A DNA stretch of 64,000 bases from a virus: the IMG/VR virus record IMGVR_UViG_3300043787_000046, positions 1 through 64,000 of that record; one strand, 5' to 3'. How positions within the stretch are numbered: the first letter of the stretch is position 1; each line of letters opens with the position of its first letter. The notes under the pieces are model-generated. The model was not told where the DNA came from, searched no databases, and saw nothing but the letters and a program-made list of their open reading frames with translations. The translations under genes were made by a program, and so were the position numbers. This document shows positions 4,199 through 48,913 of this stretch, piece by piece.

Positions 4199-4680
4199 CC
4201 GCCGTCCGCCCCGGGCCTTGACTCTTCCGCCCCCGGTAGCTGATTCAGCCCTTCTGCGGGGGGCGGGACCGACGGCGCCCACATGCCCCGCTCCAGGTAC
4301 CCGGCATGCTCGCGGCGGCACTCCGCGCACAGCACAGTCGCGATCGTCCCGTGCCAGTCGCACTCCCACGGGACCGCCTGCCCGGTCCGGGGGATCAGGT
4401 TCCACACCGGGTCATGCGGCAGCGACTGGCGCCACCGGCGGTACGCCTCCGCGTACTCCCGTGCGCTGATGATCTTCCCGGTGCCCGCAGGCTTCGGGCC
4501 GTCGCCGAAGAACACCTGGAGTGCCCCGAGCGGCTCGGCCCAGACCGTCACCCGCCGGCAGCAGTCCGGCAGGGACGCATCAGACGGGTGGCACAGGTGC
4601 GCGCCGGGCTTCCGGCCGGCAGTCCCGGCGAAGGCCTCAGCGCCGCGGCGCCCGCAGTGGCGGCACGTCTCATCGCTCAC
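4180..4680 (-). CDS. Antisense cargo protein with N-terminal zinc ribbon
   Basis: A leftward gene placed between terL and portal. From the GTG start the protein begins SDETCRHCGRRG, a CxxC knuckle, with later Cys pairs (LCHPS..DCC and CAEC) and a Trp-rich middle. Similar SDE/SDK starts with CxxC pairs recur in other antisense genes of this phage. It is not needed for the virion order, so it looks like a moron (an independently acquired gene). Function unknown. Confidence 0.6.
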   Translation of the reverse strand: MSDETCRHCGRRGAEAFAGTAGRKPGAHLCHPSDASLPDCCRRVTVWAEPLGALQVFFGDGPKPAGTGKIISAREYAEAYRRWRQSLPHDPVWNLIPRTGQAVPWECDWHGTIATVLCAECRREHAGYLERGMWAPSVPPPAEGLNQLPGAEESRPGADGGQSSLP

Positions 4681-4711
4681 CCGCCCGTTCTCGCAGCCGG
4701 GGGAGGCGCGA

Positions 4712-7201
4712 ATGGGCAAGCGCCGAGGCCGGCCGCACGGCGCGATCCGCCCCTCCGCCTACACCGGCCCGGGCGGCGTCACCTACACGGCCGAGCAGGT
4801 CGCCGGGATGCTCGCCGCCCAGCGGCAGCAGCTCGGCGCAGCAGCCCCCGTCGTCGTGCCCTCGGCAGCCGTCGCCAAGATGTCCGGCACCGGAGTCCCC
4901 CCGGGCATCGAGGCGTCCGAGGCGCTCCAGCAGATGACCCCCGGGTCGCCGTTCGCCCCGGGTACGCCCCTCCCGCCGTTCGACGGGTACTCCCGCACCC
5001 CCCGCACCCGCGACTTCCCCGCCAGCGTCAACGTGGCGACCCGCCCGCGGCTCCACGAGCGGGTCAGCTTCGAGACGCTGCGGGGCCTTATCAGGGCCTA
5101 TGACGTGGCGGGCATGTGCATCTGGCACCGCATCGACACGCTGCGGTCCGTCAAGTACCGGCTCGTCCCCGCCGACGGCTACAGCGGTGACGTGACCGGC
5201 GCTGTCGAGCTGGCCAAGCAGGTACTCCGCAAGCCCGACGGGCGCCACCACTTCAAAAACTGGCTGGCGCGCTGGCTGTACGACGTCCTCGCCTACGACG
5301 CCGGGGCGCTCTTCCGCCTCCGGAACAGGGCCGGCCGCTGCACCGGCCTGAAAACAATTGACGGCACGACTCTCGCGCCGCTCCTCGATTACTGGGGCGA
5401 CGAGCCCGGGGCCCCGGCGCCAAGCCACGTCCAGATCGTCAACGGGCTGATCTGGAACTGGCTGACACCCGACGACCTCATTTACGAGCCGATGCGCCCG
5501 GTCAATGACTCGATTTACGGGCAGCCGCCGATCGAGCTTGTCATCCTGAATGCCAACACGGACATCCGGACGCAGATCCACTTCCTTCAGAGATACACGG
5601 AAGGAAATATCCCGGAGGCTTTCGCAAGCTCGCCGGAATCGTGGACACCGGATCAGATTGAGCTTTTCCAGGGCTACTGGGACAGTTTCATGTACGGAGA
5701 CGCGGCGAGGAAACACCAGATCAGGTGGATGCCCGGCGGGAGTTCCATTTCGTGGACTAACGAGCGGGATTTCACTGACGCGTTCTCGCTGTTCATGATG
5801 CGCAAGACCTGCGCCGGCTACCACGTCGTCCCGACAGACCTGGGATTCACGGACTCCTCGAATTACTCCACCGGGGAAAGCCAGGCAGACGTCGCCCACA
5901 AGGCCGGCGAGCTGCCGCTGATGGAATATACCGAGGAAATCCTCAGCCAGTTCCTTTATGACGACATCCGGGTGCCGGTTAAATTCGAGTGGGACCGCGG
6001 CGAAGACCAGGATGACCGTCTCGTGCAGGCGCAGTCGGACCAGATCTACATTCAGTCCGCCGTCGTGGACGCGGACGAGATCAGGGAAATGCGGTTCGGC
6101 CTCCCCGTCGACGAGCAGCGCAGGGTGGGCAGGATCTTCTTTACCGAACGCGGCGGCCCGATCCCGCTCAACTCGTTCCTCGCCCTGGCCGGCAAGATCG
6201 ACCCGGAGACCGCCGCCCCCGCCGCCGATGCGGTGCTGCCGGACACGGCGTTCAGCGACGTTGAGGGGGTCATCTCCAACCCGCCTGTCCTCGGGACGCC
6301 GCTTGCGGTGGAAGAGTACGGGCCGGGCGCACTGCCCCCGATGCCCCCGTCCCAGCCGATGCCGGCGGACGAGCCGGCAGGCGCGGACGACGGCGACGGC
6401 AGTAAGCCGGTGGCCAAGGAAGGCGACGGCGCGGCCCCGGCAACGGGGATCACGGCGGAGACCGGCCTGTACGGCTACGACCTTGACCGGGGCGATGAGG
6501 GCGAGGAAGACGGCGACCGCGAGCGGGTCGCCAAGTCCGAGCTCGCCGTGTTCTGCGCCTACCGGCAGGCGCGCCGCCGCGAGCGCGAGTGGCGCGACTT
6601 CCCGTTCACCGCCGTCGGCAAGACCGCCGCTCATAACCTCAACGATTCCGGCCGGCTGGCCGTCCGCAAGGACGCCGGTGAAGTCGCGGTCGCCGGCCTG
6701 GCGGTCCTCGCCGCGGACACCGGCCGCGTGCTGATGCTCCAGCGGGCACTCTGTGCCGACGACCCGGCGGCGGGGACCTGGGAATTCCCGGGCGGCCACA
6801 TCGAAGGCGATGAGTCGCCGCTGGCCGCCGCGTGGCGGGAGTGGCAGGAGGAAACGGGGACGGCGTGCGCCCCCGGAGTGCAGACCGGCTCGTGGACGTC
6901 CGGTATCTACCAGGGCATCGTGTGGACGATCGAGCGCGAGGCAATGGTGCCCGTCCGCTCGGGCACCATGATCCCGGACCCGGATGACCCCGATGGCGAC
7001 CAGGCCGAATCCATTGCATGGTGGGATCCGGCGACAATCCCCGGCAACCCGGCGGTACGGCCCGAGCTGCTCGCCGGCATCGGCGCCGTGACGGCCGCTC
7101 TCGGCTGCGCTTCACCTGATGACAGTGTTGCGGCGCAGACCGGTAAGGTTGCCAAGGCGGCTGATGCGGCCCCAAAAGCGAGTGGCCCGGATGGGCTCTA
7201 G
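4712..7201 (+). CDS. Portal protein with C-terminal Nudix hydrolase domain
   Basis: 829 residues from the ATG, preceded by GGGAGG. The ORF extends further upstream but that part is antisense to the previous gene. Residues about 90-520 match actinophage portals: an N-terminal wing, then YDVLAYDAGALFR, NERDFTDAF and SQADVAHKAGELPL. The portal ring is the DNA channel of the capsid. After an acidic/Pro linker, residues about 655-790 form a Nudix domain with a full box: G-x5-E-x7-REWQEETG, preceded by WEFPGGH. Catalytic Glu residues are intact, so hydrolysis of a nucleoside diphosphate derivative is plausible. The 3' end carries a slippery heptamer leading into the MuF frame. Confidence 0.9.
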   Translation: MGKRRGRPHGAIRPSAYTGPGGVTYTAEQVAGMLAAQRQQLGAAAPVVVPSAAVAKMSGTGVPPGIEASEALQQMTPGSPFAPGTPLPPFDGYSRTPRTRDFPASVNVATRPRLHERVSFETLRGLIRAYDVAGMCIWHRIDTLRSVKYRLVPADGYSGDVTGAVELAKQVLRKPDGRHHFKNWLARWLYDVLAYDAGALFRLRNRAGRCTGLKTIDGTTLAPLLDYWGDEPGAPAPSHVQIVNGLIWNWLTPDDLIYEPMRPVNDSIYGQPPIELVILNANTDIRTQIHFLQRYTEGNIPEAFASSPESWTPDQIELFQGYWDSFMYGDAARKHQIRWMPGGSSISWTNERDFTDAFSLFMMRKTCAGYHVVPTDLGFTDSSNYSTGESQADVAHKAGELPLMEYTEEILSQFLYDDIRVPVKFEWDRGEDQDDRLVQAQSDQIYIQSAVVDADEIREMRFGLPVDEQRRVGRIFFTERGGPIPLNSFLALAGKIDPETAAPAADAVLPDTAFSDVEGVISNPPVLGTPLAVEEYGPGALPPMPPSQPMPADEPAGADDGDGSKPVAKEGDGAAPATGITAETGLYGYDLDRGDEGEEDGDRERVAKSELAVFCAYRQARRREREWRDFPFTAVGKTAAHNLNDSGRLAVRKDAGEVAVAGLAVLAADTGRVLMLQRALCADDPAAGTWEFPGGHIEGDESPLAAAWREWQEETGTACAPGVQTGSWTSGIYQGIVWTIEREAMVPVRSGTMIPDPDDPDGDQAESIAWWDPATIPGNPAVRPELLAGIGAVTAALGCASPDDSVAAQTGKVAKAADAAPKASGPDGL
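7171..7196 (+). promoter_or_regulatory. Probable -1 ribosomal frameshift site (portal to MuF)
   Basis: In the portal frame the codons are GCC CCA AAA, which gives the canonical X XXY YYZ heptamer C CCA AAA at 7171-7177. It is followed after 7 nt by a small hairpin, GCCC(GGAT)GGGC at 7185-7196. The -1 frame is open from 7165 and runs straight into the MuF domain, whose frame has no good start codon for a long way. Confidence 0.6.
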
Positions 7202-23617: not shown

Positions 23618-26600
23618 ATTGCCAGTGCCTACGTCACGGTATCGCCCGATCTGGACGGTTTCGCCGAGGAACTCGAAGCCAAGGTCCAGGAAGCGACCGA
23701 GGGCGTCGAGGGCAAGGTCAAGATCACCGTCACCGCCGACACCGAGGAAGCGAAAGACGGCCTCGATGAGGTCAGGGAGAAAAAAGACGACCTCGACGGC
23801 AGCAAGGCCGAGATCAAGGTCACCGCCGACGCCGATGAGGCCAAGGCCGACCTTGATGACGTCAAGGCCAGCCGGAACGAGCTAGACGGCAGCGACGCCA
23901 GTCTCAAGGTCGCCGCCGACGCCGATGAGGCCAAGGCCGACCTTGATGACGTCAAGGCCAGCCGCGATGACCTTGACGGCTCCCATGCCGAGGTAGAGAT
24001 CGGCGCGGACGACGCCTCCGCCAAGGGGGCGATCGATGACCTGAAGATGCAGCTTGCGATCCTGCGGCTGCAGAAGCAGGGCATCACCATCGACGCGGAC
24101 GCCACCCCGGCCGAGATGAAGATCGCCGCCCTGCAGGCGCAGATCAAGGCACTGCAGGACGAGGAAGACGAAAGCGGCGGCGGCTTCTCCGTGCCGGACT
24201 TTCCCGGCGGGATGATCGGCGGCATCGCGACCGGCCTCGCCGCCCTGTCGCCGGGGTTCGCGGGCGCGGCGACCGGGCTGGGACTGCTCGGCGGCACCGG
24301 GTACCTGGCGTTCTCCGGGATCGCGAAAGCTCTCGAGGCCAGCCATGAGGCGTCGCAGAACGTCGGGATGACGAGCCAGCAACTCGCCGCCCAGCAGTTC
24401 TCCGACTCCGTCCAGGTGCAGCAGGCGCAGCAGGGCGTCGCCCAGGCATCCGAGCAGTCCGCGCAGGACCAGATCACGTCCGCGCAGTCCATCGAGCAGG
24501 CGCAGATGAACCTGGCCAGCACCGAGCGGAACGCCGCCGCGGCGCAGGTCCAGGCGATCCAGGCTGTCGGGCAGGCGCAGCAGCAGGTCCAGCAGTCCAC
24601 GTACAACCTCGGCGAGGCGCAGTACACCCTCGGGCAGGCGTACGTGTCGGCCCGCGAGGCGATCGTCCAGGAAAACGACGCCCTGGCCGACGCGAAACTG
24701 AACGTGAAGTCCGCGAGCCTGGCGGTGCAGCAGGCGGAATACAACGAGCTGCTCGTCAATCAGAACGCCTACTCGACCGATCTTGACCGCGAGCAGGCGG
24801 CCCTGGCCGTGGCACAGGCCAAGCAGCAGGTCACCGACGCGACCGCCAGCGAGTCGGACGCGCAGACCTCGGCGAACCTGGCCAACAGCCAGGGCGTCGA
24901 CGGGTCGCAGGTGGTGATCCAGGCCAAGCAGGCGCTCCTGGCCGCGCAGGACTCCCTCACCGACTCACTGCAGTCCTACAAGGACGCCCAGGTCAACGTC
25001 ACCAACGTTGAGCTCAACAACGCCGAGCAGGTCAAGCAGGCGCAGATGCAGGTGGCGTCGGCACAGGAGCAGGCGGCGTACCAGCAGAAGATGGACGCCC
25101 AGTCCGTCGCGATCGCCCAGCAGAACGTGACGAACACGATCAAGGAGCAGCAGCTCCAGTGGGCGTCGATGATGTCCACGGCCAACTCCAGCGCGAACCA
25201 GTTCGCCCTGGACATGAGCAAGCTCACCCCCGCCGGCCGGGCGTTCGTCAACGTCTTCCTCGGCCTCGAGCCCGCGTTCCGGACCCTGGAGAGCATCGCG
25301 CAGAACACGGTGCTGCCCGGCATGACGATCTGGCTGCAGGGCATCAAGTCGCTGCTGCCCTCGATCGAGTCCGGGGTAGGCCGGATGGGCGCCGCCATCT
25401 CGGGCGCGTTCGGGGCGTTCGGGAAGCAGATGCAGACGCCCGCGTTCGCGAAGGTCCTCGACGGGCTGATCAGCAACGGCATCCGGTTCACTGACATCGT
25501 GCTCCCGGCGTTCGCCGGGTTCATCCGGGAACTCGCCGTCGTCGGCAGCAAGAAGGGCGCGGTCGACGGGCTGGCGAACCTGCTGGCCGGCCTGGCGGAC
25601 GGCCTCACCGGGCTGGAGAAGGGCCTCGCCCCGTTCACCTCGTCGCTGTCGTCCGTGTTTTCTACCCTCGGGTCGGCCCTGGCCGCCATCGGCGGCCCGC
25701 TAGGGCAGGTGATCGGGGCACTGGCGTCCGCGCTGGCACCGGCCCTCTCGGCGCTCCTGCCCGGGTTCCGGGCGCTGACCGGGGCACTCGGCCAGGGCCT
25801 CGCCGCGGCACTTGTCGGGGTGGGCCCGCTGCTGGGTGTTCTCGGGCAGGCGGTGAGCAAGATCGCTGTCGCGCTCGCCCCGGTGCTGCCGCAGCTCGGG
25901 CAGATGATCGCGCAGCTCGCGACCGCGCTGGTGCCCGTGCTCCAGTCGCTGATGCCGCTGATCACCGGGTTCGCTGACATCCTCGCAGCGGGCCTGCGGG
26001 CGAACCTGCGGCTGACCTCCGCCGAGCTCGGGTTCATCCTGCCGCCGCTGGCACGGCTCGTCACCGGGACCGGCAAGGTGATCGACGTGATCGGCCGCGC
26101 GGTCGCGGCACTCCTCGGGCTCAGCACCGGCGGCCTCGCACCCGTCGCGAAGGCCTTCGGCGAGTTCACGTCCGGGGCGCTGGACGAGCTGAGCACGGAC
26201 TTCGGGACCGGGTTCCGCCAGATCGGCGACGTGGCGGACTGGCTGTGGCATGACGTGCTCGACCCGGTATGGCAGGGGATCTCGGCGGGGGCGCAGCGGC
26301 TGTACTCCAGCGGCATCGCGCCGGTCATCCAGGACATCAAGACCGATATCGCCGGGCTGGAGAACGCGGCCCTGTGGATGTGGCACAACGTTTTCGACCC
26401 GGTATGGCAGGGCATCGAGTCGGGGGCGCGCACGTTCGTCTCCGGGTTCGGCACGGTGTGGGGCAAACTCGAATCTGTCTTCAAGACGCCGGTGAACTTC
26501 CTGATCAGCACCGTGTACGACGACGGCATCGCGAAGCTGTGGGATTCGGTCGTCAAGGCGATCGGCCTCGGGTCGCTGAAGCTCCCGGTCATCCCCGCGC

Positions 26601-28174: not shown

Positions 28175-29380
28175 GTGAACGCGACCATCCCGCCCGACAC
28201 GCGCCAGACGGGGCAGGGCAATCCCGCCGCTGACATGGATGACGTGGCGGATGTCCTGGCCCGCGTCACGAACTCACCACCCGGAAGCGCGCTGCCGCCC
28301 GGCTACTTCATGCGGCGGGACGCCGGGGACGGTGCCCAGCGGATCGTCGTCCCCCTCTACGAGTACCCGACGTACTACCTGGCCTCCGGCGACTACCAGA
28401 CGATCCAGGCCGCCGGCCCGGTCGCGTCCATTGTCATCCTCAACGCCGACAGCGGGCCCGGCACCTACACCGATGACTGGACCGCGCAGATCAGCGAGCT
28501 GCACGCGGCCGGGATCTATGCGCTGGGCTACGTGCCCACCGGCTACGGGGACGACGTCCTCGCGACCGTCGAGAGCATGGTCGACACGTGGTACTCGTAC
28601 TACCCGGCGCTCGACGGCATCTTCTACGACGAGGGCGCCTACCTGATCGCGAGCCAGCCGTACTACCTGTCGCTTTACAACTACGTGAAGGCCAAGAACA
28701 CCGGCGAATGCATCGTCCTCCTCAACTGCGGAGACATCCCGGACCAGTCATACATGAGCACGTGCGACATCCTGTGCACCTGCGAGGAGACGTACACGTA
28801 CTACACGACGGAGTACGCCGCGTCGCAGCCGGACTGGCTGCCCTATTACGCGGCGTCGCGGTACTTCCATATTATCGAGGAAGTCGCGACGCTGGCGCAG
28901 CTCGGCGAGGTCCTGGCGCTCAGCAGGACGTTCCGGGCCGGCTACGTGTACGTGATCGACAGCCTGGGCGGCTACACGACGCTGGCGGGCAACGCCACGT
29001 CCAACCCGCTGTTCTGGTCCCATCAGGTCGCCTGGTGCCGGAGCGGGTTCGCTCCCGGTCCCGCCGCGACGGCGACGCTCACGACGGGCGCCGCGATCAC
29101 CTGGAACTACCAGTACGACTCGTACCCGCTGACCGCCGCGGGGGCCGTGACCGGGCTGATCCTGTCCGCCCCGTCGCTGACGGCCGCGCCGCCCGCGCTG
29201 ACCGCCCCGGTGGCGGCGTCCATCCGGGTCACCCTGATCAACACGAGCGCGTACAGCATGACGTTCGCCGCCGCGGGGACCAGCAACGTGGCGGACGGGA
29301 CGAGCGACGTGATCGCGGCCGGGACCGCGGTCACCTACATCTGGGAGCCTGCCGCGAGCCTGTGGTACCGGGTGGCGTGA
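28175..29380 (+). CDS. Tail protein with spherulin-4-like glycoside hydrolase domain
   Basis: 401 residues, GTG start after GGGGGTGAG. Residues about 60-290 have the pattern of the spherulation-specific family 4 (TIM-barrel, GH135-like): VPLYEYP, SIVILNADSGPG, GIYALGYVPTGYG, then DGIFYDEG with a likely catalytic Asp/Glu pair, and later CEETYTYY. The last 100 residues are a beta-sandwich. Located among tail tip genes, it may cut an exopolysaccharide such as a galactosaminoglycan; the substrate is inference. Upstream, 28046-28174 shows no convincing gene. Confidence 0.68.
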   Translation: MNATIPPDTRQTGQGNPAADMDDVADVLARVTNSPPGSALPPGYFMRRDAGDGAQRIVVPLYEYPTYYLASGDYQTIQAAGPVASIVILNADSGPGTYTDDWTAQISELHAAGIYALGYVPTGYGDDVLATVESMVDTWYSYYPALDGIFYDEGAYLIASQPYYLSLYNYVKAKNTGECIVLLNCGDIPDQSYMSTCDILCTCEETYTYYTTEYAASQPDWLPYYAASRYFHIIEEVATLAQLGEVLALSRTFRAGYVYVIDSLGGYTTLAGNATSNPLFWSHQVAWCRSGFAPGPAATATLTTGAAITWNYQYDSYPLTAAGAVTGLILSAPSLTAAPPALTAPVAASIRVTLINTSAYSMTFAAAGTSNVADGTSDVIAAGTAVTYIWEPAASLWYRVA

Positions 29381-31585: not shown

Positions 31586-32638
31586 GTGGCGACTTCAGTT
31601 GTGACCAGCGAGCCGCAATGGCTCGAAGGCTGCACGTACGACGGCAACGGCGGCAACGACCTGCGCCTCAGCGGCCCCGCGGCCTACTTCTACGACGAGG
31701 GCATCGTCACCGGGTCCGTCACCGGCGTGCTCAGCGGCGTGATCGGCGGCGCGGGCCTTCAGGTGTCCGCAGGCGGCGCGATGACCGTCGCCGTGCAGCC
31801 AGGCGGGTACGTCGTCCAGAACACCGGCACCCCGGCGGCGGGCGGCTACGTGTCGAAACTCGCCCAGCAGGCGACCCTCACCGTGCAGACCGCCGACCCC
31901 GCCAACCCGCGCATCGACATCGTGGTCGCCTACGTCTCCGACGTCGGCACGTCCTCATCGTCCGGCGCGGTGGAGATCATCACCGGCACTGCCGCCGCGT
32001 CACCGTCCGCGCCGTCCGCGCCGGCGAACAGCATCACCCTCGCGCAGCTCACCATCCCGGCGGCCACCACGACGGTCACCAGCGGGATGATTACTGACGA
32101 ACGGCCGTTCACTACCGCGGCGGGCGGCGTCCTGGTGGCCCCGAAGGGCAGCGTCACCGGGTACGTCGGGCAGCTCGGCTACGACAAGCCATCAGGCAGC
32201 TTTTATCACAACACGAACACGGGCGGCAGCAAGCAGGCGCGCGTCCTGCCGTGGGCTCCGGTCCATGAGATCCTCACCACCAGCTTCGAGCTCCACACCG
32301 GTGAGTTGACGGTCCTGAGTGCGACCGTCACCACAGACGGCCTGACCGACCTGAAGATCAGCTGGCGCATCCCGCAGATCAACTGCACCAGCGCGACCAC
32401 CGTCGCGGTTCACACCGCGATCGACGGCACCGACATCGAGGTGGCGCAGCAGGGCGACCCGGCTACCCAGTGGACGTCCATGGGCGCGACCGTCTACACG
32501 TCCTCGGCCGCGGGCACCACGCCGTCCAGCGGCACCCATACGGTCACTCTCGGGGTCTCCGGGTCGACGGGAACCATCAACCAGGACGGGATCGACGTTG
32601 CCGCCTGCTACCTGCGGGTCGAACCGGTCGTGCTCTAG
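31586..32638 (+). CDS. Minor tail/upper baseplate protein
   Basis: 350 residues, GTG start after GGGGG. YFYDEGIVTGSVTGVL, VQPGGYVVQN and NPRIDIVVAYVSDVG match the structural proteins that follow Dit in actinophages, with a C-terminal jelly-roll (CYLRVEPVVL). It probably forms part of the tail tip or receptor-binding hub. Its TAG overlaps the next GTG (TAGTG). Confidence 0.62.
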   Translation: MATSVVTSEPQWLEGCTYDGNGGNDLRLSGPAAYFYDEGIVTGSVTGVLSGVIGGAGLQVSAGGAMTVAVQPGGYVVQNTGTPAAGGYVSKLAQQATLTVQTADPANPRIDIVVAYVSDVGTSSSSGAVEIITGTAAASPSAPSAPANSITLAQLTIPAATTTVTSGMITDERPFTTAAGGVLVAPKGSVTGYVGQLGYDKPSGSFYHNTNTGGSKQARVLPWAPVHEILTTSFELHTGELTVLSATVTTDGLTDLKISWRIPQINCTSATTVAVHTAIDGTDIEVAQQGDPATQWTSMGATVYTSSAAGTTPSSGTHTVTLGVSGSTGTINQDGIDVAACYLRVEPVVL

Positions 32639-33837
32639 TGGCCGACTGGAAATACGCGGCGACGGACCTGCTCTCGGGGCAGCTGCTGTGCGACGACCTG
32701 CCGCTGGACGTGCAGTCGCTGAGCGCGAACCTCAACGGCACGGGCACGCTCAACGGCAGCCTGAACCTGAACGAGCTGCCCGCGGTGAACACCCCGTACA
32801 TCACCGCGCTCACCCCCAGGCGCGCCGTCTTGTGGGCGCTCGCGGACGGGTGGCCGGTGTGGGCCGGGATCGTCTGGGACTGGCCGCAGATGTCCATGGC
32901 GCAGGGCACGCTCAGCATCAGCGCCCAGACAATGGACTCCCTCTGGTCGCACCGGCTGATCACTGACACCCTGGAATACCCGGAAACCGACCTGTTCACC
33001 ACCTTCCTGGACCTGGTCAGCTACGGGACGAGCAAGGACAGCTCCTATATCGAGACGGGCGTCTCACCCGCCCAGACCCGCGATCCTGCCTACCTGGCGA
33101 TGTTCGCCACCCAGGGGAAGGTTGCCCGGCTGGCACTGCCGTCCGGCCTCACGTCCGGGGTCCCGTGGACCGCCAGCTACACGTACTCAGACCTGACGCA
33201 GGTCTCCAGCGCGTGGAGCGACATGACGGCGAGCGGGAACCTCGAGTACGTCTTCGCCGCCGGCCTCGACACCGCCGGGGAACTGACCGTGTTCCTGCAG
33301 CTCGGGTACACCGCGCTCGGCCGCCCCCTCGCCGACTCCGGGATCGTCTTCTCCTATCCGGGCAACTGCACCGACTACGGGTGGCCTGTCACCGGGTCGC
33401 AGTCGGCCAACATGATCTTCGCCACGGCACCCCCGAACGGCAGCGAGCTGACCTGGGAAAGCACCTACCCGCACGGGGCCGACACCTCCGACCTCGCGTC
33501 ATTCCCGGTGCTCGAGTCGACGGTGAGCTGGGACGGGTCGTACGTCACGAGCCAGTCGCAGGTCAACTCGTTCGCTGACGGTCAGGTCGCCCTGATGACC
33601 GCGGGGATGACCACGCCGACCGTGAACGTCGGAGGGGCCGGGTACCCGAGGCTGCAGAACGTACAGCTCGGGGACGGCTGCCTGCTGGCGATCACGTCCC
33701 CGCTGCATCCGCCGCAGGCGGACGGGTCGCCGGGTGTCCAGCAGGAGATGCGCGTCACCGGGTGGACCGCCTACCCTCCGGGGCCGCAGCAGGCAGAGTA
33801 CGTCCAGTACAGCCTCAGCGGCGTGGTGGCGTCGTGA
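32638..33837 (+). CDS. Minor tail protein (Gp37-like/tail tip)
   Basis: 399 residues from a GTG overlapping the previous stop. LPLDVQSLSANLNGTGTL, then ALTPRRAVLWAL and WPVWAGIVWDW are characteristic of the ReqiPepy6 Gp37-like minor tail family. The middle contains the 33-bp protospacer (33036-33068) identical to the spacer inserted at 43484-43516. Ends GTGA into the next gene. Confidence 0.68.
   Translation: MADWKYAATDLLSGQLLCDDLPLDVQSLSANLNGTGTLNGSLNLNELPAVNTPYITALTPRRAVLWALADGWPVWAGIVWDWPQMSMAQGTLSISAQTMDSLWSHRLITDTLEYPETDLFTTFLDLVSYGTSKDSSYIETGVSPAQTRDPAYLAMFATQGKVARLALPSGLTSGVPWTASYTYSDLTQVSSAWSDMTASGNLEYVFAAGLDTAGELTVFLQLGYTALGRPLADSGIVFSYPGNCTDYGWPVTGSQSANMIFATAPPNGSELTWESTYPHGADTSDLASFPVLESTVSWDGSYVTSQSQVNSFADGQVALMTAGMTTPTVNVGGAGYPRLQNVQLGDGCLLAITSPLHPPQADGSPGVQQEMRVTGWTAYPPGPQQAEYVQYSLSGVVAS
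33036..33068 (+). other. Protospacer matching the inserted spacer, AAG PAM
   Basis: 33 bases identical to the reverse complement of 43484-43516. The preceding bases are A34 A35 and the first protospacer base is G36. This gives 5'-AAG, where the G becomes the first base of the spacer. That is the known rule for type I-E spacer acquisition. Confidence 0.9.
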
Positions 33838-42722: not shown

Positions 42723-43069
42723 GCCGCGCCGTTCGCGTGCGGCGGCGCGTCCTGGTCCCCCGGCTTCCGCTCGGCTCGCGGCCTGCCGGTGATCGCCCAG
42801 TACCGGTTCCGTGCGCCCGTCGCCGACATGCCGGTGAGGGCAGCTATCGCGGCGAACGACAGGCCCTCCCGCTCGCGCAGCTCGACGATCTTGCTGTCGG
42901 GCACATCGGGGCGCTTGCGCGGACCGCGCGGGCGCGTCGCGTCGCCGAGCCACCGCTGCACTGTACGCGGGTCGACGCCGAGCCGGGCGGCGATGGCCCG
43001 CGTGGTCAGCGTCGTCGCGTAGAGCTGCCGGGCTTGCGCCCGCTTGCCTTCGTCCGTCTTGCGGGTCAC
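42650..43069 (-). CDS. HTH DNA-binding protein
   Basis: 139 residues: KRAQARQLYATTLTTRAIAARLG followed by VDPRTVQRWLGD is a homeodomain-like helix-turn-helix (resolvase/Mor type). A second HTH-like segment is LSFAAIAALTGMSATGARNRY. The C-terminal tail overlaps the lysin 3' end by 73 bp. Second-step gene of a leftward cluster at 42650-44190; a likely regulator. Confidence 0.62.
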   Translation of the reverse strand: MTRKTDEGKRAQARQLYATTLTTRAIAARLGVDPRTVQRWLGDATRPRGPRKRPDVPDSKIVELREREGLSFAAIAALTGMSATGARNRYWAITGRPRAERKPGDQDAPPHANGAAHTPSSTGQVAGPTTPSATIPAPD

Positions 43070-43368
43070 GGCACCAGGACCGCGCCGGTCACGACGGCGG
43101 TAACGGTCTGGCCGTAGGGGGTGACGGTCAGCTCGGCGGTGTCGGCGGGGCTGCCGGTGACCCGGAGTTGCCATGTCTCGCGGAGTTCCTCGGACCTGCC
43201 GCTGGCGCGCCGGACGTGGAGTTTGCCCTCGGCCGTGATGATGTCGCCCGGCACGGCGTCGATCTCGCGGGCGGTGGTGCTGGCATAGGTCGCGCCGATC
43301 CGGATCCAGCACGGGCCGGCCATCTTGCTGCGGCTCGGGATGCCTGTCTGGGTGATGGTGACGGTCAT
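43066..43368 (-). CDS. Hypothetical beta-rich protein
   Basis: 100 residues: TITQTGIPSRSKMAGPCWIRIG, VPGDIITAEGKLHVRRASGRSEEL and a repeated-strand end (TVTPYGQTVTAVVTGAVLV). Overlaps the HTH gene by 4 bp. No function. Confidence 0.5.
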   Translation of the reverse strand: MTVTITQTGIPSRSKMAGPCWIRIGATYASTTAREIDAVPGDIITAEGKLHVRRASGRSEELRETWQLRVTGSPADTAELTVTPYGQTVTAVVTGAVLVP

Positions 43369-43369
43369 G

Positions 43370-43655
43370 TCATGCCCGCCCGTCGCGACGGTAGAAGGTC
43401 ACGGAGCGGTCAGAGCGGTCGGTGACGCGCATCCACGGGTCGCCGTCGCCGGCTTCCATATCCCGCGCGCGCCCGGCGGGGATGGTGAGACGCCCGTCTC
43501 GATATAGGAGCTGTCCCCATATCCCGCGCGCGCCCGGCGGGGATGCCTCGCGAGTAGCTGACTTCGACTATCTGCCCCGTGTTGCGTGCGGGGGTGGTAA
43601 ATACGATGCTGTCCGGGACTTCGGAGGCCGGGACAGCGCGGTACGTCCAGCTCAT
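43370..43655 (-). pseudogene. Small gene disrupted by a CRISPR-type 61-bp insertion
   Basis: The start MSWTYRAVPASEVPDSIVF runs into frame-shifted sequence at the duplicated region. Removing exactly 61 bp restores one frame: GIPAGRARDMEAGDGDPW through TFYRRDGRA and a stop at 43370, just before the next ATG. The repaired gene is 225 bp, 74 residues, without internal stops. The insertion is therefore recent. Confidence 0.85.
43456..43544 (-). CRISPR. Off-target spacer insertion: 28-bp duplication around a 33-bp spacer
   Basis: Positions 43456-43483 and 43517-43544 are identical 28-bp copies (a 29th flanking base also matches). On the - strand the copy begins ATCCCCGCCGGGCGC and ends GCGGGATATGG. 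The 33 bases between them equal phage sequence 33036-33068 in reverse complement. The unit length of 61 bp equals that of the array at 47977. Stem-like TCCC(C)GC...GC(G)GGGA and the shared CGGGCGC core resemble a type I-E repeat. Confidence 0.88.
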
Positions 43656-46479: not shown

Positions 46480-46773
46480 TCACCGTGTTCCCGGACGCGG
46501 CCTGACCATCAGCGTCAGCCCCTCGAAGTCCGCCGCCGTCCACCGTCCCGCCCCGGCCGTCAGGATCTCGCAGCCTTGCTCCCTGCCCCGGTCAGTGACC
46601 ACCATGACCGCCGACCCTCCTTGCAGGACGCCGAACCGGACCCGGCGCCACAGGTGCTCCCGGACACGCCGCGATACTTTCCCGGTGAACACGCCCGGGG
46701 CGATCTCCAGGAGCCACCGGGACAGGTCGCCGCGCAGCCCCGGCGGCACCGAAGTGAGGACAAGGACGATCAC
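46480..46773 (-). CDS. cas2: CRISPR-associated protein Cas2, type I-E
   Basis: 97 residues with the I-E Cas2 pattern: VLVLTSVPPGLRGDLSRWLLEI, GVFTGKVSRRVREHLWRRV and a C-terminal strand. It forms the Cas1-Cas2 complex that measures and inserts spacers. Its start overlaps the stop of cas1 by 4 bp, so the two are co-translated. No cas3, cse1, cse2, cas7, cas5 or cas6 is near. Confidence 0.9.
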   Translation of the reverse strand: MIVLVLTSVPPGLRGDLSRWLLEIAPGVFTGKVSRRVREHLWRRVRFGVLQGGSAVMVVTDRGREQGCEILTAGAGRWTAADFEGLTLMVRPRPGTR

Positions 46774-47705
46774 GGCCCGTCCTCCCCGTAGCTGACGCCG
46801 CCCGGCACAGTGCCGTGGTCGTCGATCAGGTCCGGCACCGCGATCCCCGCGACTGTCTCGCCGTCATCTCCGGGGGCGCCGAGCAGTCCCCGGATGTCAT
46901 CGGCGATGCGGGGCAGCAGCCGCGCTGAGACGATCGCGTCCCGCACCGCGCGCCTGGTCTTAGCCCCGAGATCCCGGCCGCCTTCCGCGGCGATCCCGAA
47001 CGCCGCCGGGATCGTGACCTCCGCCTTGTACAGGTCCGCGATGTCGTACACGAAGGACAGCTGGTGCCCGGTGTGGACGAATCCGAGCCCTGGACTGCAC
47101 CCGAGGTGCAGGATCGCGGCGTGGGTGATGCCGTAGAGGGCGGAGTTCGCGGCCGACAGGCACCTGTTCACCGGGTCACCCGCGCTCCAGTCCTTCGGGT
47201 CGTATCTCCGGCCGCGCCATGCGGTGCCGGTTTTCTCTGCGTGCAGCCGGTAGCAGGCGCGGACCCGGGCGCCTTCCCGGCCGCGCAGTTGCTGCATGCT
47301 CAGCCGGGAGACATCCTCGCCGGGGAACCGCATCGCGTACATCTGCCGGGCGACGGCGATGCGGGTTTTCTGCCCGGTGACGAGCGCGGCCTGCCGTTGC
47401 AGCAGCACCGACGATGCCGCTGCTGCCGTGGTGCCGGCGTAGAGGCGGACGCCTTCCTCGCCCACCCACGCGACGGTGCACCCGCTGCCGGCCAGGAGCG
47501 AGATGGCGGCGTGGGTGATCGTCACGCCGGGGCCGAGGAGAAGCGCCGCGAGCACAGCAGCGGGGATGCTCGCGACCCCTTCGGCTTGCCAGATGGTGAC
47601 TGCGTTCAGGTCGCGGTCGATCCTTGCATGCTCAACGTGCAGGAAGCTGAGCCGGTCGCTGATGCGGCTGAGTTCCGTCGCTTTGGCCGGTAATGCGCCT
47701 TTCAT
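46770..47705 (-). CDS. cas1: CRISPR-associated endonuclease Cas1, type I-E
   Basis: 311 residues from the ATG that aligns with family starts; an upstream ATG at 47774 would add 23. Diagnostic I-E segments are present: LLGPGVTITHAAISLLA, VAWVGEEGVRLYA, QLRGREGARVRACY, GRRYDPKDWSAGDPVN, LGFVHTG and LSFVYDIADL. The metal-binding residues of E. coli Cas1 (Glu, His, Asp) correspond to E in REGARVR, H in FVHTG and D in VYDIAD. All are intact, so spacer integration activity is expected. Confidence 0.92.
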   Translation of the reverse strand: MKGALPAKATELSRISDRLSFLHVEHARIDRDLNAVTIWQAEGVASIPAAVLAALLLGPGVTITHAAISLLAGSGCTVAWVGEEGVRLYAGTTAAAASSVLLQRQAALVTGQKTRIAVARQMYAMRFPGEDVSRLSMQQLRGREGARVRACYRLHAEKTGTAWRGRRYDPKDWSAGDPVNRCLSAANSALYGITHAAILHLGCSPGLGFVHTGHQLSFVYDIADLYKAEVTIPAAFGIAAEGGRDLGAKTRRAVRDAIVSARLLPRIADDIRGLLGAPGDDGETVAGIAVPDLIDDHGTVPGGVSYGEDGP

Positions 47706-47859
47706 TTGTCGCGCTCCCCTCTGCCAGTCAAGGAACCCGCCGCCCCCTGGACCCTCCTGCAACTCGGCCGTCATCCCGCGCGCCAGATTCCGGGTCGGCC
47801 AGACCCGGATCTGCGGGCCGCGCCTGCTAATGCCGGACAGGCGCCCCTTGCTGACCAGA

Positions 47860-47976: not shown

Positions 47977-48614
47977 CCGTCGCCCCAGCGCCCGTGGGCC
48001 GCACATCGCGCTGCTGGCCGTGCCCGGCAGCGTCATCCCGTCGCCCCAGCGCCTGTGGGCCGCACTCCGGCGTGCGTTTCACCCCGGTGCCCGGTGGCCC
48101 GTCGCCCCAGCGCCCGTGGGCCGCACCTGGCGTCACGGACGATGTAGCGGGCCGACCTCCCGTCGCCCCAGCGCCCGTGGGCCGCACACAGCACGCTGTT
48201 GCCAGTCCCGAGTTCTCAGACCGTCGCCCCAGCGCCCGTGGGCCGCACACGAAGCCTCGATCGCGAACGCGGCACGCCGGTCCGTCGCCCCAGCGCCCGT
48301 GGGCCGCACACCAACCGCTCATGGTGGGGGCTGCGCCTTGGCCCGTCGCCCCAGCGCCCGTGGGCCGCACCTTCGGCCTCCATCACCATCTGAGTCAGGT
48401 TCACCGTCGCCCCAGCGCCCGTGGGCCGCACCTCCCGTCCCTAGCCAACCGACGGGCCGACATACCGTCGCCCCAGCGCCCGTGGGCCGCACCACATTCT
48501 GAGCAAAGAGTAGCAATGTTCATTCCCGTCGCCCCAGCGCCCGTGGGCCGCACGCCATCTCGATGGCGCAGGATATGAGCGGTGTCCCGTCGCCCCAGCG
48601 CCCGTGGGCCGCAC
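47977..48614 (-). CRISPR. CRISPR array, 11 repeats and 10 spacers, type I-E-like
   Basis: 28-bp repeats at 47977 and every 61 bp to 48587. On the - strand each starts GTGCGGCCCACGGGC and ends GCTGGGGCGACGG. Ten repeats are identical; the one at 48038 has one change. All ten spacers are 33 bp and different. I saw no match between them and this window by eye. Orientation from the degenerate repeats and from cas1 is leftward. One spacer (48493-48525) is only about 40% GC, unlike actinobacterial DNA. Confidence 0.97.
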
Positions 48615-48676
48615 CCTGTCCTCATCAGGTGTTCTCTCGCCGGCTGTTACGTCAGCCGGGACGCATCATTCGCGGA

Positions 48677-48913
48677 TCACCAGGCCAGCGTCCAGTAGCC
48701 GCAGAACATGGCACCGAGGAGGACGCCGGGCCAGTTGCCGCCGGCCACGGAGGCCAGGGTCAGGACGGCGCCCGCCAGGTAGGCCAGCACGGCGAAGGCC
48801 CCCGCCAGCACGGGGTCATGACCGTTGAGTGCCGCATGGATGATGCAGCAGCCCAGGGCGGCGACGGCCATCATGAGCGGGACCTCCGCTGTCGCCACCA
48901 GTCCAGCGGCCAT
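48677..48913 (-). CDS. Small membrane protein
   Basis: 78 residues with two to three membrane segments (VPLMMAVAALGCCIIHAAL, AGAFAVLAYLAGAVLTLA). Last of three leftward membrane genes; the CRISPR array begins 62 bp after its stop, so that gap or the gene end may act as leader. Confidence 0.55.
   Translation of the reverse strand: MAAGLVATAEVPLMMAVAALGCCIIHAALNGHDPVLAGAFAVLAYLAGAVLTLASVAGGNWPGVLLGAMFCGYWTLAW

Follow-up and report, generated by a model that had tools for sequence, protein, structure and literature searches.

Described off-target integrations and virus-borne CRISPR elements

In Escherichia coli, Cas1-Cas2 was reportedly found by Nivala, Shipman, and Church in 2018 to integrate spacers off target (at non-canonical sites) in vivo, and the same authors are said to have pointed to putative natural cases in the chromosomes of Yersinia pestis and Sulfolobus islandicus. 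PMC11788318 names Nivala et al. 2018 (also cited in PMC11687729) for in vivo off-target integration under overexpression. When E. coli Cas1-Cas2 acts alone in vitro, integration takes place at sites other than the array (PMC10011333), repeat-like sequences among them (PMC8047081). Virus-borne mini-CRISPR arrays (Medvedeva et al. 2019, PMC6858448) consist of a one-spacer repeat-spacer-repeat unit in a viral genome, with host-type repeats and, in the archaeal cases, leaders; there are no viral cas genes, and self-targeting is avoided. Phage ICP1 encodes both Cas1 and an array, as parts of a type I-F CRISPR-Cas system with a full effector (PMC6452262).

The locus described here belongs to a virus record of 68,832 bp from IMG/VR that carries terminase, portal, tail, and integrase genes and of which positions 1 to 64,000 form the window. 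At positions 43456 to 43544 of the window, 33 bp of the phage's own DNA lie between two copies of a 28-bp sequence within a small gene, very probably because a type I-E Cas1-Cas2, whether of the phage or of its host, integrated self DNA off target. The locus would share with the E. coli case (Nivala 2018) a type I-E integrase, a repeat-like target off the array, a duplication, and a neo-CRISPR locus as the outcome. However, whereas the E. coli case concerned mainly Cas1-Cas2 overexpression and a bacterial chromosome as the recipient, the recipient here is a virus with cas1e and cas2e genes of its own, the spacer comes from that virus's DNA, and it disrupts a gene. The unit resembles the mini-arrays (PMC6858448) in its layout but differs in sitting within a coding gene and in having a spacer with a perfect match in the genome that carries it. 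As in ICP1, Cas1 and an array are phage encoded, but the adaptation genes are of type I-E and no effector was detected. The kind of event is already known or proposed; what is new is that an integrase encoded by the virus, a spacer derived from its own DNA, and the disruption of one of its genes occur together, a combination of which no earlier report was found in the literature searched.

The 61-bp unit and the gene that it splits

The direct repeat (CCATATCCCGCGCGCGCCCGGCGGGGAT) occupies positions 43456 to 43483 and 43517 to 43544, with a period of 61 bp, and the 33 nt between its copies (43484 to 43516) are the exact reverse complement of positions 33036 to 33068, with identity ending there on both sides. 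Read on the minus strand, the unit begins with the first copy of the 28-bp target (43517 to 43544; ATCCCCGCCGGGCGCGCGCGGGATATGG), which is the leader-side copy in the orientation derived from the PAM, continues with the 33-bp spacer (GGACAGCTCCTATATCGAGACGGGCGTCTCACC), which opens with the G of the source's AAG, and ends with the second copy (43456 to 43483), an exact duplicate of the first that integration would have produced. Base 29 of the duplicated target (G) matches too, leaving a one-base ambiguity between 28+33 and 29+32; 28 bp was preferred over 29 bp because the repeat register of the target favours it. A 28-bp target duplication around a 33-bp insert has the form of a type I-E product. 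The original prediction had taken the 61 bp to be a 28-bp duplicated target plus 33 new bases identical to positions 33036 to 33068, and its coordinates and repeats were confirmed, the match of the 33 bases being exact and in reverse complement.

For a given 33-mer, about 2e-13 exact partners are expected in the phage genome, and the chance of a perfect 28-mer anywhere at a fixed spacing of 61 bp is about 5e-11. With the CRISPR array excluded, positions 43456 to 43544 held the sole near-perfect duplication at a spacing of 50 to 79 bp in the whole window, where 28-bp stretches at these spacings otherwise reached at most 22 of 28 matches, and the insert and its source formed the window's only inverted match of more than 20 nt between distant places. 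A single structure in the window, this one, combined a 28-bp duplication with a self-derived 33-bp insert. Elsewhere in the window, a 52-bp exact direct repeat was present at 23823 to 23874 and 23913 to 23964 (90 bp apart), directly upstream of the tail lysozyme gene. An assembly artefact or a chance duplication was considered for the insertion, since all sequence evidence for it comes from one assembled, metagenome-derived IMG/VR record and the region was not found a second time. However, the probability of a chance duplication is below 1e-10, and we know of no assembly error that would duplicate 28 bp and also add an inverted copy of 33 bp drawn from an AAG site; on these grounds this explanation was rejected as extremely improbable.

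Without the 61-bp insert, the gene that contains the unit (43370 to 43655, minus strand) would have 74 codons, from the ATG at 43655 to a TGA at 43372 to 43370. In its present state, the reading frame that opens at the ATG at 43655 is lost in the insert and ends after 81 codons, at 43410. Upon removal of 61 bp, the 74-codon frame returned and its TGA stood one base ahead of the ATG (43368) of the next gene (100 aa; 43066 to 43368, minus strand), whereas removal of 89 bp, the length of a whole foreign repeat-spacer-repeat, did not restore the frame. The codon-position GC peak also changed phase across the insert. Because 61 is not a multiple of three, the insert frameshifts the gene and uncouples its stop from the next gene, and the gene is presumably now non-functional.

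By tblastn against 2.3 Gb, one homologue was found (E = 3e-3), Orf24 of Skermania phage SPI1 (KR011061), another actinophage; this distant homologue is an uninterrupted 74-aa protein with a 225-bp coding sequence. The whole gene scored 95 against Orf24 (BLOSUM62; shuffle maximum, 56), and the parts before and after the insert each aligned to it as well (scores of 63 and 54, respectively; 0 of 5,000 shuffles each), which is direct evidence that the two halves now out of frame were once one gene. Viral contigs, GTDB genomes, and plasmids contained no further homologue. A search with the flanks of the empty site returned neither a same-species sibling nor a further copy of the region, the contigs of the closest relatives, as judged from the 497-aa head-region gene (97% and 90%), ended before 43 kb, and the loci of relatives of the neighbouring 258-aa and DUF7873 genes were not syntenic at this site. 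That the target lay outside an array and had previously been empty is thus indicated by the frame and by SPI1 Orf24, with no same-species sibling among the sequences found. The restoration, upon deletion of 61 bp, of a frame whose stop is coupled to the next gene had been predicted and was borne out, and the uninterrupted 225-bp gene proposed as a check in relatives was found at exactly that length in the distant actinophage.

Viral single-spacer mini-arrays are known (PMC8616872, PMC6858448) and the repeat at 43456 to 43544 is I-E-like, both of which are in keeping with a functional virus-borne mini-CRISPR array of one spacer and two repeats, acquired via recombination with a host array. We hold such an origin to be very unlikely. 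The return of the frame with 61 bp removed, and not with 89, implies that the 28-bp target is native coding sequence, and recombination was rejected on this frame test. In addition, the spacer is a perfect match to self, unlike those of described mini-arrays, which are directed at relatives and spare the virus itself. The repeat, which lies inside a coding gene, agreed with the repeat of the phage array at only 15 of 28 positions, and phage and plasmid records held no array with the target repeat, the repeat matches in them being noise.

Source of the spacer and likeness of the target to I-E repeats

The source of the insert lies in a minor tail protein gene (32470 to 33837, plus strand; phrog_1885, E = 9e-36). 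Also in the tail region, a Spherulin-4-like (glycosidase-like) protein is encoded at 28175 to 29380. On the plus strand, the source reads GAGCAAG followed by GACAGC, and the matched 33 bases (33036 to 33068) begin at the G of AAG, so that protospacer and PAM together span 33034 to 33068, with AAG at 33034 to 33036 and its G shared. Protospacers of E. coli type I-E measure 33 bp and start with the final G of the AAG PAM (PMC10011333); the source follows this rule, with an AAG-adjacent protospacer whose first base is the G of AAG. Identity extends no further than this G, making the PAM end unambiguous. AAG occurs at 0.8% of plus-strand positions, which gives a chance of about 0.8% of finding it at a given place, or about 1.5% with either end allowed. 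This PAM was found in the present analysis and is evidence beyond that of the original prediction. In the tail genes of the nearest relatives, at most 23 of the 33 positions matched the spacer, which points to this phage or a near-identical sibling as the donor.

Compared with the repeat of the phage array, the target (ATCCCCGCCGGGCGCGCGCGGGATATGG) was identical at 15 of 28 positions, ungapped and in register (top 1.2% of positions; 2.4% among GC-matched positions). With a score matrix built from five I-E repeats (of this phage, three Cas1e-bearing contigs, and E. coli), the target ranked 236 of 135,870 positions (top 0.2%), a percentile that is indicative, the five repeats being those at hand; when one repeat at a time was left out, it stayed within the top 0.08 to 0.75%. 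Registers shifted by one to four bases scored −2 to −25 and the reverse complement scored −1.3, so that the I-E likeness was limited to the duplicated register and to the orientation that the PAM end predicts. This end comes directly after the minus-strand target, as in the orientation of a true array. The resemblance of the target to a type I-E repeat, which had been anticipated from its sequence, was therefore upheld as specific to register and orientation. Predicted RNA hairpin strength placed the target in the top 5% only and was not counted as evidence.

The phage adaptation module and the proposed event

Subtype I-E genes for both subunits of the integrase are predicted on the minus strand of the phage itself, cas2 (97 aa; 46480 to 46773) with matches to Cas2e in PADLOC (E = 1.7e-33) and to E. 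coli and Megasphaera Cas2 in the PDB, and cas1 (334 aa; 46770 to 47774) with matches to Cas1e in PADLOC (E = 8.5e-128) and to PDB entries 8hi1 and 3nkd; the Cas1e motifs GREGARVR, FVHTGH, and YDIADLYK are all intact. Among annotated phage records, the other Cas1 matches were ICP1-type I-F proteins and a few contigs. The CRISPR array (47977 to 48614, minus strand) has 11 repeats of 28 bp and 10 spacers of 33 bp, with the minus-strand repeat GTGCGGCCCACGGGCGCTGGGGCGACGG and a period of 61 bp; as predicted, this 28+33 geometry is common to the array and the insertion site, about 4.4 kb away. Decayed repeats at around 47855 and 47916 are on the cas1 side of the array, which places the leader at the opposite (right) end, and from this decay and the sequence the probable leader was assigned to positions 48615 to 48680 (minus strand), on the side away from the decayed repeats. 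Past the array, peptidase A4, GH26-like, and mannosyltransferase-like proteins are encoded between 49487 and 55167. Six of the ten array spacers start with G, a count that does not establish a PAM preference of the system's own. The spacers had no convincing match among phage records and none within the window, and a scan of viral and genome collections with the array repeat gave no match.

Searches of the 68,832-bp record, which is possibly incomplete, revealed no Cas8e, Cas7e, or Cas3, and none of the three was among the 25 PADLOC families shown for 82 predicted proteins; a complete type I-E system, with Cascade and Cas3, was thus not found, and the phage, judged by its predicted genes, carries an adaptation module without a recognisable effector. 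In the same record and outside the window, a DrmMI/type IIG methyltransferase-like protein is encoded at 66178 to 67536 (L019:6178-7536; PADLOC E = 5.8e-19). A related, phage-like contig of 202 kb (L006/L027; IMGVR_UViG_3300042090_001530) shares with this phage a portal-NUDIX protein (55% over 827 aa) and, at L006:7384-9240, the order array-cas1e-cas2e. In the window, the portal protein (972 aa; 4283 to 7201) has a C-terminal NUDIX hydrolase-like region. The repeats of L006 and of this phage were identical at 16 of 28 positions in register, in L006 a T stood after the 28-nt repeat ahead of all seven spacers, and Cas7e was not detected in the L006/L027 contig, which would make this a second I-E adaptation module with no effector.

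The same off-target reaction could have been carried out during infection or lysogeny by a host type I-E Cas1-Cas2 that missed the host array. Host I-E systems have the same 28+33 geometry and an AAG-type PAM (PMC10011333), phage DNA is the usual spacer source for host systems, the relatives of the phage Cas1 include host-like contigs with full I-E systems, and a host type I-E integrase would leave an identical mark. However, the phage itself has a competent-looking Cas1e-Cas2e pair about 3 kb from the site, and the target was more like phage-type repeats (its own and that of L006) than like those of E. coli or host-like contigs. A host enzyme is a real possibility but not a likely one, and we favour the phage enzyme over it as the probable author; the phage Cas1e-Cas2e is the simplest candidate, given that it is encoded in the genome that bears the insertion, shares the geometry of the insertion, and has kept its motifs.

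In the event that we propose, a type I-E Cas1-Cas2, likeliest the phage's own (46480 to 47774), would have taken a 33-bp piece of phage DNA at the AAG PAM in the minor tail protein gene and inserted it into the repeat-like 28-bp site in the small phage gene instead of at the array's leader end. Once the two strands had been attacked at points 28 bp apart, gap repair would have duplicated the 28 bp and left a repeat-spacer-repeat, and the gain of 61 bp would have frameshifted the 74-codon gene and uncoupled its stop from the next gene. We conclude that the outcome was a one-spacer neo-array within a broken small phage gene, probably made in one single Cas1-Cas2 integration event, and the identity of 33/33 and 28/28 bases suggests that this was recent. 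A natural off-target insertion of self DNA by Cas1-Cas2, the core of the original prediction, was supported by every test run, with spacer and duplication length, PAM end, register and orientation of the target, the presence of cas1e and cas2e, and the 225-bp homologue all in agreement.

The natural frequency with which Cas1-Cas2 hits non-CRISPR DNA and the origin of new CRISPR loci have been studied mostly by overexpression. Here, source, PAM, target, duplication, and broken gene are all readable in one genome, with the likely enzyme adjoining, and the site supplies a natural target sequence for testing. The locus also bears on the cost of an adaptation module in a virus, for which its own DNA is a main source of prespacers. 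A self-matching spacer, if transcribed and processed, could harm the phage, and survival is thus informative on the absence of interference. Carrying an I-E adaptation module without an effector may be typical of this phage group. More speculatively, and with considerable doubt, there may be an actinophage lineage in which an effector-less I-E integrase recurrently inserts DNA of self or competitors off the array, giving rise to neo-CRISPR loci and gene knock-outs.
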